DNA of 64,000 nucleotides, from contig NZ_QWGG01000001.1 in assembly GCF_003730195.1 (NCBI RefSeq), positions 620,001 to 684,000 of the forward strand. The letters are read 5' to 3'. The notes under the pieces were generated by a model, which was given only the letters and a program-made list of their open reading frames with translations, made no database searches and had not been told where the DNA came from. The translations under genes and the position numbers were made by a program. Positions 19,793 to 27,466 of this stretch are shown piece after piece. This DNA comes from Halosimplex salinum. Its GTDB lineage: Archaea; Halobacteriota; Halobacteria; Halobacteriales; Haloarculaceae. How positions within the stretch are numbered: the stretch's first letter is position 1; each line of letters starts with the position of its first letter.

Positions 19793-20770
19793 TCAGAAGT
19801 CGCCGAGCGTGGCCTGGTTGGCTTTCAGGGACTGGGCGGGGTAGCCCAGTTCCGACGTGATGGCGGTGGCGAACTCGTCGGCGAAGCCGTGCTGGGTGTA
19901 CACCTGCTCGGGGTCGACGGCGGAGACGAGGGCGAGGAGTTCGTCGTAGTCGCAGTGGTCCGTGAGGACGAACCCCTCGTCGAAGCCCCGACGGTAGACG
20001 AACGAGTCGTCGACGGCCCATCCCGAGAACCCGGCGGTGACAGCACCGGTCGACTCGACCAGCGACTCGACCCAGGGGCTCCGTGGCGACCCCGAGCAGA
20101 CGAGCGCGTCACCGGCGCCGAGTTCTCCCTCTGAACCGTAGCGCTCGCCGGGGAAGGTCACGTCGCGGTGGTCCTCGATCACGTCGCTCACGTCAGCGAC
20201 GGCGTCCGTGACGAACACGCGGTCGCGCGGCGAGTCCGCGAGGAGTCGCTGGAGCTTCTGCGCTCGCCCCAGCGCGTACCCGAACATGAGGACGGGTCGA
20301 TCCATCGTCTCCGCCAGCCACGACCGGATCGCGTCGACCGATTCCTCCGTGGATGGGAACCGATATTCGGGCTTCCCGTAGGTCGACTCGAGTATCAGCA
20401 CGTCCGCGTCGACGGGGTCGAACCCGTCGAGGTGGAAGCGGTCCCGCGTCGAGCAGTCGCCGGTGTAGAGGTACCGCCGGCCGGTGTCGGGGTCCGTGAG
20501 CCGCATCGCCCGCGAGCCGACCACGTGGCCCGCCGGAAACAGTTCGGCCGCCGGGTGGTCGACCGCGGTCGGGGCCGCCCCGCCGCGCCGGGCGCCGACC
20601 AGCGCGGCCGTCAGGTCCGAGGCGACGACCGCCGACCCGCTGGCGTAGTGGTCGCCGTGGGCGTGGCTCACGAGCGTCGCGTCGGCGTCGCCGCTCCCGT
20701 CCGCGACGAACCGCTCGCCGCCGGCGAACGTGATCTCGATCCCACTGCGTAGCCGAACCCGCCGCGTCAC
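19793..20770 (-). CDS. Metallo-beta-lactamase-fold exonuclease / mRNA 3'-end-processing-like protein
   Basis: A 325-residue protein of the metallo-beta-lactamase fold. Metal-binding motif SHAHGDHYASG (HxHxDH) lies near residue 37, followed by FPAGHVVGSRAMRL, YTGDCSTRDRFHLDGF and LESTYGKPEYRFP, and near the C-terminus LTDHCDYDELLALV. This is the group annotated as ligase-associated exonuclease or mRNA 3'-end processing exonuclease in archaea. The GTG at 20770 is chosen because a TATA-like CGTATATTCG lies about 27-30 bases upstream, which fits a leaderless transcript; a second GTG at 20791 lies inside that promoter. Confidence 0.85.
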   Translation of the reverse strand: MTRRVRLRSGIEITFAGGERFVADGSGDADATLVSHAHGDHYASGSAVVASDLTAALVGARRGGAAPTAVDHPAAELFPAGHVVGSRAMRLTDPDTGRRYLYTGDCSTRDRFHLDGFDPVDADVLILESTYGKPEYRFPSTEESVDAIRSWLAETMDRPVLMFGYALGRAQKLQRLLADSPRDRVFVTDAVADVSDVIEDHRDVTFPGERYGSEGELGAGDALVCSGSPRSPWVESLVESTGAVTAGFSGWAVDDSFVYRRGFDEGFVLTDHCDYDELLALVSAVDPEQVYTQHGFADEFATAITSELGYPAQSLKANQATLGDF

Positions 20771-20930
20771 GCCCGCCCGTTGGCCCCTCACTCGAATATA
20801 CGTGTCGTCGGGCGGCCCCACGCCCGGCGCGCTGCCCCACGCCCTGCCCACCGCCCGACCGCCGCCACGCCGCCATCAGTTTCACCGACGGTCGACTCGC
20901 GAATCGCCGGCAAGCGGCCGTCTGCATTCA

Positions 20931-20976
20931 CTTTCACTTCCGCTCCGGGGTAGGCTGGCGTTTTATAGCCCGGAGT
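20931..20976 (+). promoter_or_regulatory. Promoter and operator of the PolB2 operon
   Basis: A 21-base element at 20931-20951 (beginning ACTTTCACTTCCGC) is repeated exactly at 24425-24445 before another operon. TTTTATA at 20962-20968 lies 28 bases before the ATG, a leaderless arrangement. The TATA box is flanked by an inverted repeat CTCCGGG (20944-20950) and CCCGGAG (20970-20976), a likely repressor or activator site. An AGTTTCAC lies further up at 20878. The hexamer ACTTTC fits ANTTTC, the element reported upstream of DNA-damage genes in Sulfolobales. Its role here is inference. Confidence 0.7.
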
Positions 20977-20992
20977 CCGTCGGATACGGGCG

Positions 20993-21703
20993 ATGCCAGA
21001 ACCTGTCGACGTTCCGACCCTCGATCCCGGGCTCACGCTGTTGCGCCCGCCCGGGCCGCGCTCGACGGCGATCCATCGTCTCGCGCTCGCGACACTCGCC
21101 GAATCGACCGGGGTGGCCTACTGGGTGGACGCCCGCAACGCCGCCTCGACGTACACGCTGTACGACATCGTACACTCGCCGCGCAGGCTCAGAAATCTCC
21201 GGGTGGCGCGGGCGTTCACCGCCTATCAGCACCACGCGCTCGGACGCCGCGTCGTCGAGCGGGTGGACGGGCGGACCGGACTGCTCGTCGCGCCGAACGT
21301 CGCGTCGCTGTACCGCGACGAGGACGTGCCCCGGTACGAGCGCGAGCGCCTGCTCGACAGCACCGTCCGGACGTTCGCGGCGCTGGCCGACGCTCGCGAG
21401 ATCCCGACGCTGCTCAGCGTGCCCGCCGGTCGTGACCCGGGCCCGGCCGCCGAGCACGCCGACCGAATCATCCGGTGTGAGCGGACGGAGATGGGGTATC
21501 GCTTCGAGGGACCGGGCGTCGAGACGACCGTCTACTGGGACGAGGGGTACTGGCAGACGACCATCCCCTACTGGGTCGACCTGCTCGGCGTCGCGTCCGA
21601 GTCGCTCGGGCCGGGAGTCGATCCGGTCGGAACCGGTTCGCCGGAGCCCATCGAACAGATCAGTCTCGCCGCGGCGGCCGGCGCGGCGGGGGGCGCGGAC
21701 TGA
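20993..21703 (+). CDS. Inactivated RecA/RadA paralogue of the PolB2 operon
   Basis: A 236-residue protein. The order of elements follows the RadA/RecA core. The Walker A region is degenerate (RPPGPRSTAIHRLA, without GKT). GVAYWVDARNAASTYTLYDI sits where RadA has its IDTE strand. LRVARAFTAYQHHAL closely mimics the RadA VARAYNSDHQ helix, and the Walker B strand lacks its Asp (GLLVAPNVASLY). It is therefore unlikely to hydrolyse ATP. Comparative work has described inactivated RadA-like genes next to archaeal polB2. By analogy with bacterial ImuA, it may recruit the polymerase to damaged sites; that is inference. First gene of a three-gene operon, sharing one base with the next. Confidence 0.8.
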   Translation: MPEPVDVPTLDPGLTLLRPPGPRSTAIHRLALATLAESTGVAYWVDARNAASTYTLYDIVHSPRRLRNLRVARAFTAYQHHALGRRVVERVDGRTGLLVAPNVASLYRDEDVPRYERERLLDSTVRTFAALADAREIPTLLSVPAGRDPGPAAEHADRIIRCERTEMGYRFEGPGVETTVYWDEGYWQTTIPYWVDLLGVASESLGPGVDPVGTGSPEPIEQISLAAAAGAAGGAD

Positions 21704-22017
21704 TGGGCCGGACCAATCCCACGTATCGGGACTTCCTCCGGCGACTGGAAGACGACTGGCGCTCCTTCCGACGGGGACTGCGCCGGCGCTCCCAGAGCGA
21801 CTTCGACCGGCTGTTCGAGCGGGCGCGCGACCACGCCGACGCCGCGGGCTACGCCAACGGCACCGACCCCGAGTTCGCCTTCCTGCTGTCGGTCCTGGTC
21901 GCACAGGAGCGCGAACTCCGGGAACTGCGCGAGCGAGTCGACGCGGTCGAGACGGACCGCGGCGACGGGGGCGACGCCAGCCCCGCTTCGGTCGGTGCCG
22001 GGACCGGGACCGAGTGA
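21703..22017 (+). CDS. Small helical protein of the PolB2 operon
   Basis: A 104-residue protein, very rich in Arg and Asp/Glu, with helical segments (TYRDFLRRLEDDWRSFRRGL, then FAFLLSVLVAQERELRELRE) that may form a coiled coil. It ends in a disordered Gly/Ala/Ser tail. I recognise no domain. The gene overlaps both neighbours by one base (TGATG), so all three proteins are probably made in fixed ratio. A small protein has been reported at this place in other polB2 loci. It may bridge the RadA paralogue and the polymerase. Confidence 0.75.
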   Translation: MGRTNPTYRDFLRRLEDDWRSFRRGLRRRSQSDFDRLFERARDHADAAGYANGTDPEFAFLLSVLVAQERELRELRERVDAVETDRGDGGDASPASVGAGTGTE

Positions 22018-24314
22018 TGTCTCTGCTCACTCCGGAGTTCCGGCCGGACGGGACGGTCCGCGAGTGGCACGCGACGGCCGACGGCGTGGAGACCCGGGTG
22101 AACGACGACTACGCGCCCTCGCTCTCCGTCGCGGCGCCCGACCCCGTCCGGGCGGACCTCGCGGCCGCGCTGGCCGCCGACCCGAAGGTCGTCGAGACGG
22201 CGACCGAGCGCCGCTACCTCTCGCTCGATGCGGACGAACGCGAGCCCGTTCTCCGAGTCGACCTCGCCCGCGTCGACGAGGTACGGACGCTGGCTCACGA
22301 GATCCTGTCCCACCACGCCGCCGACTACGCGCCGGGGACGGTGCGGCTCTACGACGTGGACCTCGCGCCGGGGTTTCGCTACTGCGTCGACACCGGGACC
22401 GCGCCGGTGCCCGAGCGGGAGTTGCGCCGGCTGGAACTGTCGATCCCCGAACGCGCGCTGGCCGAGGACGACCTGACCGCGCTCCGGGTCGACGGCGAGG
22501 CGCTTCGCGCCTCGAAAGCGAGCGGGGACGGGGGACCCGCGAGCCGCCAGGCCGACCGCGCGGTCCTCGACTCCCTCCGCGAGCGCGTCGAGGTGGTCGA
22601 TCCGGACGTGCTAGTCTGTTCGACCGCCGAGCTGATCCCGCGGTGTCACGAGCGAGCGGAGGCGCTCGGGCTCGACGACTTCCGGCTGGGGCGGGCGGAC
22701 GGCTACGAGCGCCTCGCCGGCGCGAGCACCTACGAGAGCTACGGACAGGTGGGTCACTCGCCGGCCCGCTACGCGCTCCCCGGACGAGCCATCGTCGACC
22801 GGTCGAACAGCTTCCTGCTCGGGAAAGCCGGGCTGCCCGGACTGCTCGACCTCGTGGGTCGGTCGTGGCGGCCGCTCCAGGAGACAGCCCGCGGCTCTAT
22901 CGGGACGATCCTCACGTCCATCGAGATCAAGGAGGCACGCGAGCGGGACGTGCTCGCGCCGTGGAACAAGTGGGAGCCGGAGGCGTTCAAGTCGGTCGGG
23001 ACGCTCCACGACGCCGACCGCGGCGGGTTCACGTTCGCGCCGGAGCCGGGAATCTACGAGGACGTCGTGGAGGTCGACTTCGCCTCCCTCTATCCCTCGA
23101 TCATGCGCGAGTACAACGTCAGCCCGGAGACGGTGAACTGCGACTGTCACGATCGGGAGGACGTGCCCGGCCTCGGCTACAGCGTCTGCGAGGACCGGGG
23201 CTTCCTCGCCGACGTGCTGGGCGGCCTCATCGACGACCGCGCCCGATTCAAGGAGGAACTCGCCGAGTTGCGCGAACGAGCGGCGACGGACGCGCTCGAT
23301 GTGGCCAGTGGAGACTATCAGGCCACGCACGCCGAACCGGACGGCGACTCGCCGGTCGCCGAGCGCGTCGCCGCGCTGGAGGGGCGGATTGACGCGCTGA
23401 AGTGGGTGCTCGTCTCCTGTTTCGGCTACCAGGGCTACCGGAACGCGAAGTTCGGGCGCATCGAGTGTCACGAGGCGATCAACGCCTACGCTCGCGAGAT
23501 CCTGCTGGACGCCAAGGAGCGACTGGAGGCCGGCGGCTGGCGGGTCGTTCACGGGATCGTCGACAGCCTGTGGGTGCAACCGCGGGCGGCGGATCCCGAG
23601 CCCATCGACGAGATCGCGGCCGTCGTGTCCGAGGACGCCCGCATCTCGCTGGAGGTCGAGGCGCGCTTCGACTGGGTGGCGTTCGTCCCGATGCGGAACT
23701 CGTCGGCAGGCGCGCTGACGAAGTACTATGGCAAGGTCGCCGGCGCCGATCCGGAAGACGATGACGCGTTCAAGTTCCGCGGGATCGAGACGCGTCAGCG
23801 CTCGACGCCGCCGTTCGTCGCCGCGGTCCAGCGCGACCTGATCCGGACGCTCGACGCCTCGAACGAGAGCGGTGAGCGAAGCGAACCGCGAACGGAGCGA
23901 CCCGCGAGCCACGACCCCGAAGCCGTCTGCGACCGCCTCGCTCGCGCGCTCGGTCGGCTGGAGCGCCGGGCGGTCGACGCCGAGGACCTGGTGATCCGAC
24001 AGCGCGTCTCGAAGTCCGTCGAGGCGTATGCCCAGCGGACCCGGACGGTCGCGGCGCTGGAGCGGACGGCGGCCCACGGACTTGAGCGACCGCCGGGAAC
24101 GAGCGTCGAGTACGTCGTCGTCGACGACGGGCGAGGAGACGCCGACCGCGTCCGGCTCCCGTTCGAGGACGCGAGCGACTACGACGTGGAGTTCTACCGC
24201 GAACGTCTGATCCGCGCGGCCGAGAGCGTCGTCTCGCCGCTGGGGTGGGACCGCGGGCAGATCCGGCGGTACCTCCGCGACGGGCGGGACCTCACGCTCG
24301 CCGCCTTCGAGTGA
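22017..24314 (+). CDS. polB2: Family B DNA polymerase PolB2 with altered motif C
   Basis: A 765-residue family B polymerase, similar in length to other PolB2. Motif A (EVDFASLYPS) is intact with Asp354. Motif B has Lys462 (LKWVLVSCFGYQGYRN). Motif C, normally YGDTDS, reads HGIVDS at 512-517: the first Asp is replaced, but the second, metal-binding Asp (516) is kept. The exonuclease motifs are lost (DPDVLVCSTAELIP in place of the DNFD type), so it should lack proofreading. This pattern fits a translesion polymerase; Saccharolobus Dpo2 has been reported active in such synthesis. The last gene of the operon, overlapping the small protein gene by one base. Confidence 0.9.
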   Translation: MSLLTPEFRPDGTVREWHATADGVETRVNDDYAPSLSVAAPDPVRADLAAALAADPKVVETATERRYLSLDADEREPVLRVDLARVDEVRTLAHEILSHHAADYAPGTVRLYDVDLAPGFRYCVDTGTAPVPERELRRLELSIPERALAEDDLTALRVDGEALRASKASGDGGPASRQADRAVLDSLRERVEVVDPDVLVCSTAELIPRCHERAEALGLDDFRLGRADGYERLAGASTYESYGQVGHSPARYALPGRAIVDRSNSFLLGKAGLPGLLDLVGRSWRPLQETARGSIGTILTSIEIKEARERDVLAPWNKWEPEAFKSVGTLHDADRGGFTFAPEPGIYEDVVEVDFASLYPSIMREYNVSPETVNCDCHDREDVPGLGYSVCEDRGFLADVLGGLIDDRARFKEELAELRERAATDALDVASGDYQATHAEPDGDSPVAERVAALEGRIDALKWVLVSCFGYQGYRNAKFGRIECHEAINAYAREILLDAKERLEAGGWRVVHGIVDSLWVQPRAADPEPIDEIAAVVSEDARISLEVEARFDWVAFVPMRNSSAGALTKYYGKVAGADPEDDDAFKFRGIETRQRSTPPFVAAVQRDLIRTLDASNESGERSEPRTERPASHDPEAVCDRLARALGRLERRAVDAEDLVIRQRVSKSVEAYAQRTRTVAALERTAAHGLERPPGTSVEYVVVDDGRGDADRVRLPFEDASDYDVEFYRERLIRAAESVVSPLGWDRGQIRRYLRDGRDLTLAAFE

Positions 24315-24361
24315 GCACGGGGCGGCGAGCGTGGCGGCGGATCACCCCGAGACGCGCGACC

Positions 24362-24472
24362 ACTTTCACGGCCGGAAAACCACTTTCACCCGCAGGACGG
24401 CGGGCGGATCGCCGGCGGATCTCTACTTTCACTTCCGCTCCGGGGACGCGGCTAACGGCTTTTGTACCGGAG
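24362..24472 (+). promoter_or_regulatory. Promoter and operator of the zinc-ribbon operon, copy of the PolB2 promoter
   Basis: Three ACTTTCAC blocks lie at 24362, 24382 and 24425. The last begins a 21-base element identical to 20931-20951. TTTTGTA at 24460-24466 takes the place of the TATA box, 28 bases before the ATG at 24488. CTCCGG (24439-24443 region) and CCGGAG (24467-24472) form the same inverted repeat around it. The similarity continues into GGAGTC. Two promoters 3.5 kb apart with this degree of matching strongly suggest shared regulation. Confidence 0.7.
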
Positions 24473-24487
24473 TCACTGGTCGGAGGT

Positions 24488-24736
24488 ATGACGGCGAGCG
24501 AATACACGAGGGACGGCCCGGCGAACCAGTACGCGGGCGACGACCCGGGCGGTGAGCGCGGGGAATCGGAGCCAGACGAGTCGAGACCCGACGGCTGGTC
24601 GCGATATCGGTGCCACGGCTGCGGGTTCGAGTTCGGCGGCGAGACCGTCGGCGCGGCGCGGTGCCCGCGCTGTGGCTGTATCGGCGACCACGACCGAACG
24701 GGAGCGCTCGCGGGGGCGACGGATGGTGGCCCCTGA
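24488..24736 (+). CDS. Zinc-ribbon protein co-regulated with PolB2
   Basis: An 82-residue protein. The first 35 residues are acidic and disordered; the second half is a zinc ribbon, YRCHGCGFEFG then ARCPRCGCIGDHDR, with two CxxC pairs about 16 residues apart. The start at 24488 follows GGAGG. It resembles small rubredoxin/UspA-linked ribbons of haloarchaea, but I cannot name a family. Its promoter is nearly a copy of that of the PolB2 operon, so it may act in the same response. It overlaps the next gene by 14 bases. Confidence 0.75.
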   Translation: MTASEYTRDGPANQYAGDDPGGERGESEPDESRPDGWSRYRCHGCGFEFGGETVGAARCPRCGCIGDHDRTGALAGATDGGP

Positions 24737-24926
24737 GGAGCTCGCCGACCTGCTCTCGGACCCGTATCGCGTGGCCTGCCCGAACGGTCACACGGCGCTG
24801 AACCCCGCCGAGACGACGCCCAGCGCCTACTGTCGGACGTGCCGGGAGTCGTACCACGCCCGGGAACTGGCCGACCGACGGCGGGACCCCGACCCGTGCA
24901 AGCATCACCGCAAGAGGAAGGACTAA
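24723..24926 (+). CDS. Small zinc-binding protein
   Basis: A 67-residue protein starting MVAPEELADLLSDPYRVACP. Cys and His residues (ACPNGH, YCRTCRESYH, CKHHRKRK) give one or two zinc sites, and the basic end could touch nucleic acid. The ATG lies 14 bases inside the end of the preceding zinc-ribbon gene, so the two are translationally coupled. No known family is recognised. A role in DNA-damage tolerance is inferred only from the shared promoter upstream. Confidence 0.7.
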   Translation: MVAPEELADLLSDPYRVACPNGHTALNPAETTPSAYCRTCRESYHARELADRRRDPDPCKHHRKRKD

Positions 24927-26086: not shown

Positions 26087-27466
26087 GTGAGCGGCGACCT
26101 CGGGAGCTTCGGGACGGACGACACGGGGCCCGAGCAGGTGATCTGCCACGTCGACATGGACTGTTTCTACGCCGCGTGCGAACGCCTGCGCGAGCCCGCG
26201 CTCCGGGGTCAGCCGCTGGTCGTCGGGATGGGCTACGAGTCCGAGGAGCCCCACGGCGCGGTCGCCACCGCGAGCTACGAGGCCCGCGAGTTCGGCGTCG
26301 AGAGCGCGATGGCCATCTCCGAGGCGCTCGAGCTGCTCCCGCGCAAGGTCGAGGCGGCGACGGACCCGGACCTCGACGTCGACGAGGCTGGGTTCTACCG
26401 CCCGGTCGATCTGGACTACTACAACGAGGTCGGCGCCGAGGTCAAGGCGATCCTCCACGAGTCGGCCGACACCGTCCGCGAAGTGAGCATCGACGAGGCG
26501 TACCTCGACGTGACCGACCGGGTCCGCTGGGAGAGCGACGCGAGTGCCGCGGGCGACGAGGGAGACTCGCTCCCCACCGTCGACGCCTTCGCCCGTGACC
26601 TCAGGGCGCGGATCCGCGAGGAAGTGGGCGTCGTCGCGAGCGTCGGCGTCGCGCCGACGATGAGCGCCGCGAAGATCGCCAGCGATTACGACAAGCCCGA
26701 GGGCCTCGTGGTCGTCGAACCCGGCGAGATACGGGCGTTTCTCGCCCCGCTGGACGTCGCCGAGATCCACAACGTCGGGCCGGTCACCGCCCGCGAGCTC
26801 CGGGAGATGGGCATCGAGACCGCGGGGGACCTGGCGGCCGCCGACCCCGACCGCATCCGCGACCGCTTCGGCGAGCGCGGACTGGAGGTCCGGCGGTTCG
26901 CCCGCGGCGAGGACCCTCGCGAAGTGACGCCCGTCGGCGAGCCCAAGAGCCTCTCCCGCGAGTCGGCGTTCACCGAGGCGACCGAGGCGACGGACGAGAA
27001 GCGGGAGAAGGTCCGGTCGCTCGCCGAAGACGTGGCCGAGCGCGCCCGGCGGGAGGGCGCGCTCTACCGGACCATCGGGATCAAGGTCGTCACGCCGCCG
27101 TTCGACGTGAACACCCGCGCCGAGTCCCTCCCCGGTCCCGTCGAGGACGCCGACCTCCTCGAGTCGACCGCACTAGACCTGCTCGAGGAGTTCGAGGACG
27201 ACCGGGTCCGAAAGCTCGGCGTCCGCGTCTCGAACCTCTCCTTTACCGAGGACGAGCAGGCGAGTCTGACGGGGTTCGAGAGCGCGTCCGGTTCAGACGC
27301 GTCCGCGGGCGATGGCGCGTCCGGTGCCGACAGCGCGTCCGCGGACGGCACTGCGTCTGCGGACGACTCGGAGTCCGCATCGGCACCCGGGAACGGGGAC
27401 GAAGCGGTCGAGGGCGATACCGCTGGCGAGCGCGACGGCCAGCGCTCGCTCCGGGAGTACGAGTGA
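26087..27466 (+). CDS. dinB: Y-family DNA polymerase IV (DinB)
   Basis: A 459-residue translesion polymerase. Catalytic motifs HVDMDCFYAACE (Asp23, Asp25) and VSIDEAYLDV (Asp136, Glu137) are intact. The helix-hairpin-helix thumb (APLDVAEIHNVGPVTARELREMGI) and the little-finger domain follow, to about residue 385. A disordered Ser/Ala/Asp-rich linker leads to QRSLREYE at the very end, which fits a PCNA-interacting peptide (QxxLxxY). The start is a GTG preceded by GGAGGG, so translation uses a Shine-Dalgarno site. It lies 1.8 kb after polB2, but without the ACTTTCAC promoter element. Confidence 0.95.
   Translation: MSGDLGSFGTDDTGPEQVICHVDMDCFYAACERLREPALRGQPLVVGMGYESEEPHGAVATASYEAREFGVESAMAISEALELLPRKVEAATDPDLDVDEAGFYRPVDLDYYNEVGAEVKAILHESADTVREVSIDEAYLDVTDRVRWESDASAAGDEGDSLPTVDAFARDLRARIREEVGVVASVGVAPTMSAAKIASDYDKPEGLVVVEPGEIRAFLAPLDVAEIHNVGPVTARELREMGIETAGDLAAADPDRIRDRFGERGLEVRRFARGEDPREVTPVGEPKSLSRESAFTEATEATDEKREKVRSLAEDVAERARREGALYRTIGIKVVTPPFDVNTRAESLPGPVEDADLLESTALDLLEEFEDDRVRKLGVRVSNLSFTEDEQASLTGFESASGSDASAGDGASGADSASADGTASADDSESASAPGNGDEAVEGDTAGERDGQRSLREYE

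Follow-up and report, generated by a model that had tools for sequence, protein, structure and literature searches.

A radA-type DNA damage element probably links the polB2 operon and a zinc-ribbon gene pair of Halosimplex salinum

A stretch of 64,000 nucleotides of the haloarchaeon Halosimplex salinum (contig NZ_QWGG01000001.1, positions 620,001 to 684,000 of the forward strand; hereafter the window, whose first letter is position 1) contains two identical copies of a 21-base element, ACTTTCACTTCCGCTCCGGGG, at 20930-20950 and 24425-24445. The first copy lies in the promoter of an operon coding for a RadA-like protein, a small protein and PolB2, a homologue of family B DNA polymerases, and the second precedes a pair of genes for zinc-ribbon microproteins. 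This 21-mer is probably the Halosimplex version of the haloarchaeal radA-type damage element, which would place the polB2 operon and the zinc-ribbon pair in the same regulon as radA, RPA, nrdJ, top6B and Mre11. In particular, the two copies are identical and conserved in a related species, their geometry with respect to the start codon is the same, and a shared set of genes follows the element in other genomes. Moreover, the promoter element common to both operons is very probably linked to DNA damage, and damage induction of both polB2 and the zinc-ribbon pair is predicted.

A signal of this kind was described in Halobacterium NRC-1 by Boubriak et al. (2008; PMC2556686), who located TTTCACTTTCA some 50 bases ahead of the start codons of radA1, top6B, vng17 and vng280, four genes induced by ultraviolet (UV)-B, and reported similar sequences before radA of other haloarchaea. 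In Halobacterium, radA1, nrdJ, top6B and the rfa3 RPA operon are UV-induced (PMC2556686; PMC1224876). The window element is probably a variant of the published TTTCACTTTCA. The initial annotation of this DNA, which had proposed a new regulon, was in this respect half right: the signal has been known since 2008, but the two operons do share a specific promoter element, and the new parts are the membership and reach of the regulon, together with the exchange with an Orc-linked scheme at polB2 described below. No later study of a haloarchaeal regulon was found in the open-licence literature.

Within the window, ACTTTCACTTCCGCTCCGGGG has two matches when up to three mismatches are allowed, versus 0.00 in 100 dinucleotide shuffles. 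Likewise, the half-site ACTTTCAC occurs four times in the 64 kb, always in the two upstream regions, where 0.47 copies would be expected. The distance from the start of TTTCACTT to the ATG is 61 bases at both the polB2 operon and the zinc-ribbon gene. With regard to the TTTCACTTTCA core, the polB2 promoter carries ATTCACTTTCAC (one mismatch) and TTTCACTTCCGC, and the zinc-ribbon promoter only TTTCACTTCCGC. The initial annotation had recognized the exact repeat, although it set the first copy one base too high, at 20931; the spacing that it gave from the 21-mer to the TATA-like boxes (10 bases to TTTTATA, 14 to TTTTGTA) and the additional copies of AGTTTCAC or ACTTTCAC at 20878, 24362 and 24382 are correct, while its statement that both boxes lie 28 bases before the ATG applies to the zinc-ribbon gene (ATG at 24488) but not to the polB2 operon, where the distance is 32 bases (ATG at 20993). 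Phylogenetic footprinting against Halosimplex aquaticum (L014) reveals no difference from ACTTTCAC as far as the TATA box at either promoter, while the flanks have diverged. The upstream half-site at 20878 is only partly conserved, since its counterpart in this species reads AGTTTCGT.

The element reaches far beyond the window. The exact 12-mer TTTCACTTTCAC is found at 140 sites (summed from the table of matches) distributed over all 28 Haloarculaceae genomes, compared with a single occurrence of CTTATCCTTATC, a tandem control 12-mer of equal composition; this separate control was run because the pattern read backwards overlaps the extended element and is not an independent control. In 20 of the 28 genomes TTTCACTTTCAC lies 68-79 bases before the radA protein match. 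Among 124 sites examined, 52 have a gene starting with ATG 50-66 bases downstream, and these 52 promoters share both a TATA-like T-run, mostly at +29 (range +25 to +34), and a tail, TCYGnGG, after the hexamers. Order-wide, the 12-mer is present in 55 of 59 genomes and, by comparison of positions, it stands before radA in at least two more families (as in G102, G117 and G124 of family f8, and in G104, G112, G119, G139 and G145 of family f10). In the genome of H. salinum itself the exact core precedes radA (motif at C22:542824, radA match from C22:542895), top6B, an RPA gene and the genes of an HNH-repeat protein and a PAP2-like protein; near matches, read only at the loci returned, precede small zinc-ribbon genes and the gene of a cyclase of the type found in cyclic-oligonucleotide-based antiphage signalling systems (CBASS).

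The genes that recur behind the element include DUF5790 (PF19103), zinc-ribbon microproteins (one cluster comprising 14 sites in 11 genomes), nrdJ (11 genomes, with a leader of about 235-335 bases), RPA and top6B (6 genomes each), a DEAD/Lhr-like helicase (4 genomes) and a protein of 53-76 residues (7). Mre11 (2), Hef (1) and MutS (1) also stand behind it. The first part of the nrdJ leaders is similar between genomes (L193, L203, L205, L154, L174, L240, L178, L259, L212 and L257), and a riboswitch or another leader RNA is possible. Microprotein pairs recur in the regulon, as a second contig of H. salinum holds another small zinc-ribbon pair behind the element (L004, G000:C2:37783, plus strand).

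A mechanism can be proposed on these grounds. In the radA-type element, TTTCAC hexamers in tandem would precede TCYGnGG, and the TATA box would come about 29-33 bases past the start of the hexamers. A putative factor would bind the hexamers just upstream of the site occupied by TFB and TBP, that is, the TFB recognition element (BRE) and the TATA box, and would raise transcription upon DNA damage. Activation, rather than relief of repression, is favoured because of the position and the near-fixed spacing of the element; transcripts are taken to be leaderless, as is assumed for haloarchaea. The RadA-like protein, the small protein, PolB2 and the zinc-ribbon pair would thereby join the products of radA, RPA, nrdJ, top6B and Mre11. 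The HNH-repeat protein (L096) was considered as the general factor and discarded: it has a DNA-binding-type domain and the element in its own genome, but no homologue among the sites of the other genomes. The comparisons suggest a coherent set behind one element (radA, RPA, nrdJ, top6B, Mre11, Hef, PolB2 and zinc-ribbon microproteins), so that this DNA could serve as bait for its factor.

Several observations weigh against this interpretation. The second hexamer is degenerate in the window, reading TTCCGC instead of TTTCAC; the exact 12-mer is missing before 8 of the 28 radA genes of the Haloarculaceae; roughly half of the sites examined could not be assigned to a gene lying at the usual distance; and most haloarchaeal polB2 operons are devoid of the radA-type element. 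In addition, threonine ammonia-lyase (TIGR01127) lies 118-191 bases downstream of the element in 7 genomes (including L161, L200, L204, L216, L218 and L273), a recurrent target that is hard to explain as repair. Finally, expression data on polB2 of any haloarchaeon were not found in the literature.

The distribution of the element at polB2 deserves closer description. In all, 80 polB2 loci were fetched. Among 46 upstream regions of chromosomal type, the radA-type element, partly degenerate, is recognized in 6 by pattern and in 7 by eye (loci L014, L020, L083, L021, L023, L035 and L051). A universal presence of the element before polB2 is therefore false. In a PolB2 tree, which does not include L083, the window and the element-bearing loci occupy six distinct branches, which span Haloarculaceae, Halobacteriaceae, Haladaptataceae and Natronoarchaeaceae. 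The search of polB2 upstream regions suggested in the initial annotation thus returned a mixed answer: most relatives lack the element before polB2, but a number of distant lineages have it there, and it precedes core repair genes family-wide. Within the genus, just one further genome of the eight (G089, 84% identity) proved to contain a chromosomal PolB2 near that of the window.

A different arrangement is common elsewhere. In 23 of the 46 chromosomal-type loci the operon promoter contains a tandem [TC]GGAA-N(2-4)-[TC]GGAA (shuffled mean 0.21, maximum 3). The same GGAA element, mostly at -58/-59, precedes the upstream same-strand Orc1/Cdc6 gene in 13 of 22 cases (shuffled mean 0.095). When a linked orc gene was sought within at most 5 kb of polB2, none of the 7 loci with the radA-type element had one, as opposed to 23 of the 29 others (Fisher p = 2e-4, an optimistic value given that the rows are related, with the branches scattered). 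In other words, the radA-type element and a linked orc gene exclude each other at polB2 loci. In four loci (L015-L018) the radA-type element is found in the promoter of the polB2-linked orc gene itself. A tentative model, to which we give slightly less than even weight, is that PolB2 can be connected to DNA damage by two interchangeable wirings: either an Orc1/Cdc6 protein of the operon controls itself and polB2 through the tandem CGGAA element, similar to the core of origin recognition boxes (ORB) and represented by TTTCGGAANNTTCGGAAACG, or orc is absent and control is direct, through the radA-type element TTTCACTTTCAC, as in the window; in some Haloarculaceae, where orc itself lies under the radA-type element, the two would form a cascade. 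If confirmed, Orc-type control would represent a euryarchaeal counterpart of Sulfolobus Orc1-2, and the swap of Orc-linked and radA-type elements before polB2 would offer a direct test of Orc proteins as damage regulators outside Sulfolobales.

Alternatively, the element could be the haloarchaeal version of the A(N)TTTC site of Sulfolobales, recognized by a paralogue of Orc1/Cdc6 that is homologous to Orc1-2. In Sulfolobus this site lies at -44 to -39 from the transcription start, the ups promoters carry ACTTTC itself, and Orc1-2 binds ANTTTC in its own promoter (PMC5817253, PMC9738581). The radA-type element in the orc promoters of L015-L018 also speaks for this alternative. The initial annotation had pointed to this kinship, and ACTTTC does fit ANTTTC; the specific tie to the Orc1-2 system is not supported, as both position and Orc linkage differ. 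The hexamers of the window lie some 48-61 bases ahead of the ATG (with transcription assumed to start near it), none of the 7 polB2 loci with the radA-type element has a linked orc gene, the linked orc of other haloarchaea carries another element in that position, similar to the ORB core, and a match of six bases is weak evidence of homology. We consider an Orc-read element unlikely, and the resemblance to Sulfolobus, which concerns the hexamer ACTTTC, would serve as a lead only.

Slightly less probable still, a plain strong promoter without damage control would have been duplicated locally and recently, which would make the shared block copied DNA rather than a sign of common regulation. The two copies do resemble one another more than they resemble the general consensus. 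In addition, another contig of the same genome carries a third, nearly identical copy, TTTCACTTTCACTTCCGCTCCGGGGTTGGCTGGCGTTTACC, exact over its first 16 bases (L003, G000:C22:316094, minus strand), before a reading frame of 57 residues (MRSNTTTDSTVRT...) with no function assigned. A duplication of this kind is at odds, however, with the match of the core to a motif that precedes radA, RPA, nrdJ and top6B family-wide, with the retention of both copies in H. aquaticum despite changed flanks, and with the different sequences that connect element and TATA box in the two promoters. Lastly, it is very improbable that the operator is the inverted repeat that brackets the TATA box (CTCCGG/CCGGAG), bound by a dimeric repressor, with the TTTCAC part secondary: both arms, noted in the initial annotation, are present at both promoters of the window, but in H. 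aquaticum the downstream arm is gone from the polB2 promoter (CCCGGAG) and changed from ACCGGAG to ACCGGGG at the zinc-ribbon promoter, with the remaining core identical, and the upstream arm is accounted for by the general element, whose conserved tail TCYGnGG includes CTCCGGGG. Given that neither promoter retains the CCGGAG arm intact in H. aquaticum, the repeat is not a conserved part, it is rejected as an operator and its occurrence in the window is probably incidental. The radA-type reading thus remains the preferred one, and the features on which it bears are collected in Table 1.

Table 1. Promoter elements and genes of the polB2 operon and the zinc-ribbon pair (positions in the window).
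Feature	Position	Strand	Remarks
Single half-site AGTTTCAC, upstream	20878..20885	+	aligns with AGTTTCGT in H. aquaticum
Class A (radA-type) element of the polB2 operon: ATTCAC-TTTCAC-TTCCGC then TCCGGGG	20926..20950	+	holds the 21-mer (20930-20950); kept in H. aquaticum
TATA-like box TTTTATA, polB2 operon	20961..20967	+	place agrees with the T-run of the 52 promoters (+25 to +34, mostly +29)
CCCGGAG, downstream arm of the inverted repeat	20969..20975	+	not conserved, probably incidental
RadA-family protein, 236 residues, first gene of the operon, without recognizable Walker A motif	20993..21703	+	profile match to RadA/RAD51 structures, E=2e-11
Protein of 104 residues, arCOG07300 position	21703..22017	+	family by position and size only
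PolB2, family B DNA polymerase homologue, 765 residues	22017..24314	+	NF004418, E=4.8e-267
Single half-site ACTTTCAC, upstream	24362..24369	+	kept in H. aquaticum
Single half-site ACTTTCAC, upstream	24382..24389	+	not kept in H. aquaticum
Class A (radA-type) element of the zinc-ribbon pair (the 21-mer)	24425..24445	+	kept in H. aquaticum
TATA-like box TTTTGTA, zinc-ribbon pair	24460..24466	+	kept in H. aquaticum
Zinc-ribbon microprotein 1, 82 residues	24488..24736	+	L014 homologue at the same place, 77% over residues 40-82
Zinc-ribbon microprotein 2, 67 residues, overlaps microprotein 1	24723..24926	+	L014 homologue at the same place, 81%

With regard to the proteins encoded downstream, an AlphaFold model of the first product of the operon (predicted local distance difference test score of 87) matches RadA/DMC1 in Foldseek with E ~1e-10. 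Motif C of PolB2 reads GIVDSLW, so its catalysis appears doubtful. The genome also contains a second PolB2, of plasmid type and 54% identical (L281, G000:C5:81581-83710). The operon is flanked by a divergent exonuclease gene of the ligase-associated type (19793-20851, minus strand; TIGR04122, below cut-off), and a DinB/Pol IV gene is located further downstream (26087-27466, plus strand); no copy of TTTCACTT was detected before the Pol IV gene of the window.

Other sites outside the window touch on different cellular functions. In a second contig of H. salinum a one-mismatch copy, TATCACTTTCAC, lies about 90 bases before the gene of the CBASS-type oligonucleotide cyclase (L108, G000:C2:95280, minus strand; PADLOC PDLC00788, E=4e-82), where damage-linked control of a defence system is possible. 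In seven genomes (L215, L219, L166, L227, L243, L264 and L267) an element with a CTCGCT- or CACGCT-type tail aims into what appears to be the antisense strand of another gene, and its target may be a small RNA or a missed gene. A scan of viral contigs returned 37 with TTTCACTTTCACTYCG, mostly of unrelated base composition and without the geometry. In a few contigs of haloarchaeal type the element keeps the distance seen in the host: it stands 65-66 bases before a zinc-ribbon gene in L313 and L316, and 60 bases before a homologue of the L156 protein in L325. Such haloarchaeal viruses or proviruses may use the damage signal of their host.

The system described here can be compared with four known ones. 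The operon of PolB2, inactivated RadA and arCOG07300, with an arORC2 gene nearby, was described by Makarova et al. (2014; PMC4104785) in passages that deal with gene order and the nearby arORC2, not with promoters. The gene order matches in the window, where the genes form one same-strand run and the first of them is confirmed as a RadA-family member; unlike in that description, no orc gene is adjacent and the promoter carries a radA-type element. The haloarchaeal ORB elements, which adjoin orc/cdc6 genes, include the ORB-like sequence TAACAGCGGAAACAGTGGGG (PMC3528665). The alternative element of polB2 and orc, which is not that of the window, has a similar GGAAAC core, but takes the form of a tandem repeat whose distance in the promoter is fixed. 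In Sulfolobales (PMC5817253, PMC9738581) ACTTTC is likewise located upstream of BRE/TATA and before damage-linked genes; the haloarchaeal hexamers, however, are in tandem and lie about 48-61 bases before the start codon, and a linked orc is absent from the haloarchaeal polB2 loci with the radA-type element. The closest relative is the Halobacterium TTTCACTTTCA (PMC2556686), with which the window element has a site upstream of the TATA box, about 50 bases from the start codon, and the targets radA and top6B in common, as well as, probably, the tandem hexamer core, and from which it differs in its degenerate second hexamer. Beyond that published element, the present analysis adds the polB2 operon and the zinc-ribbon pair, defines the TCYGnGG tail and lists the recurrent targets in Haloarculaceae.

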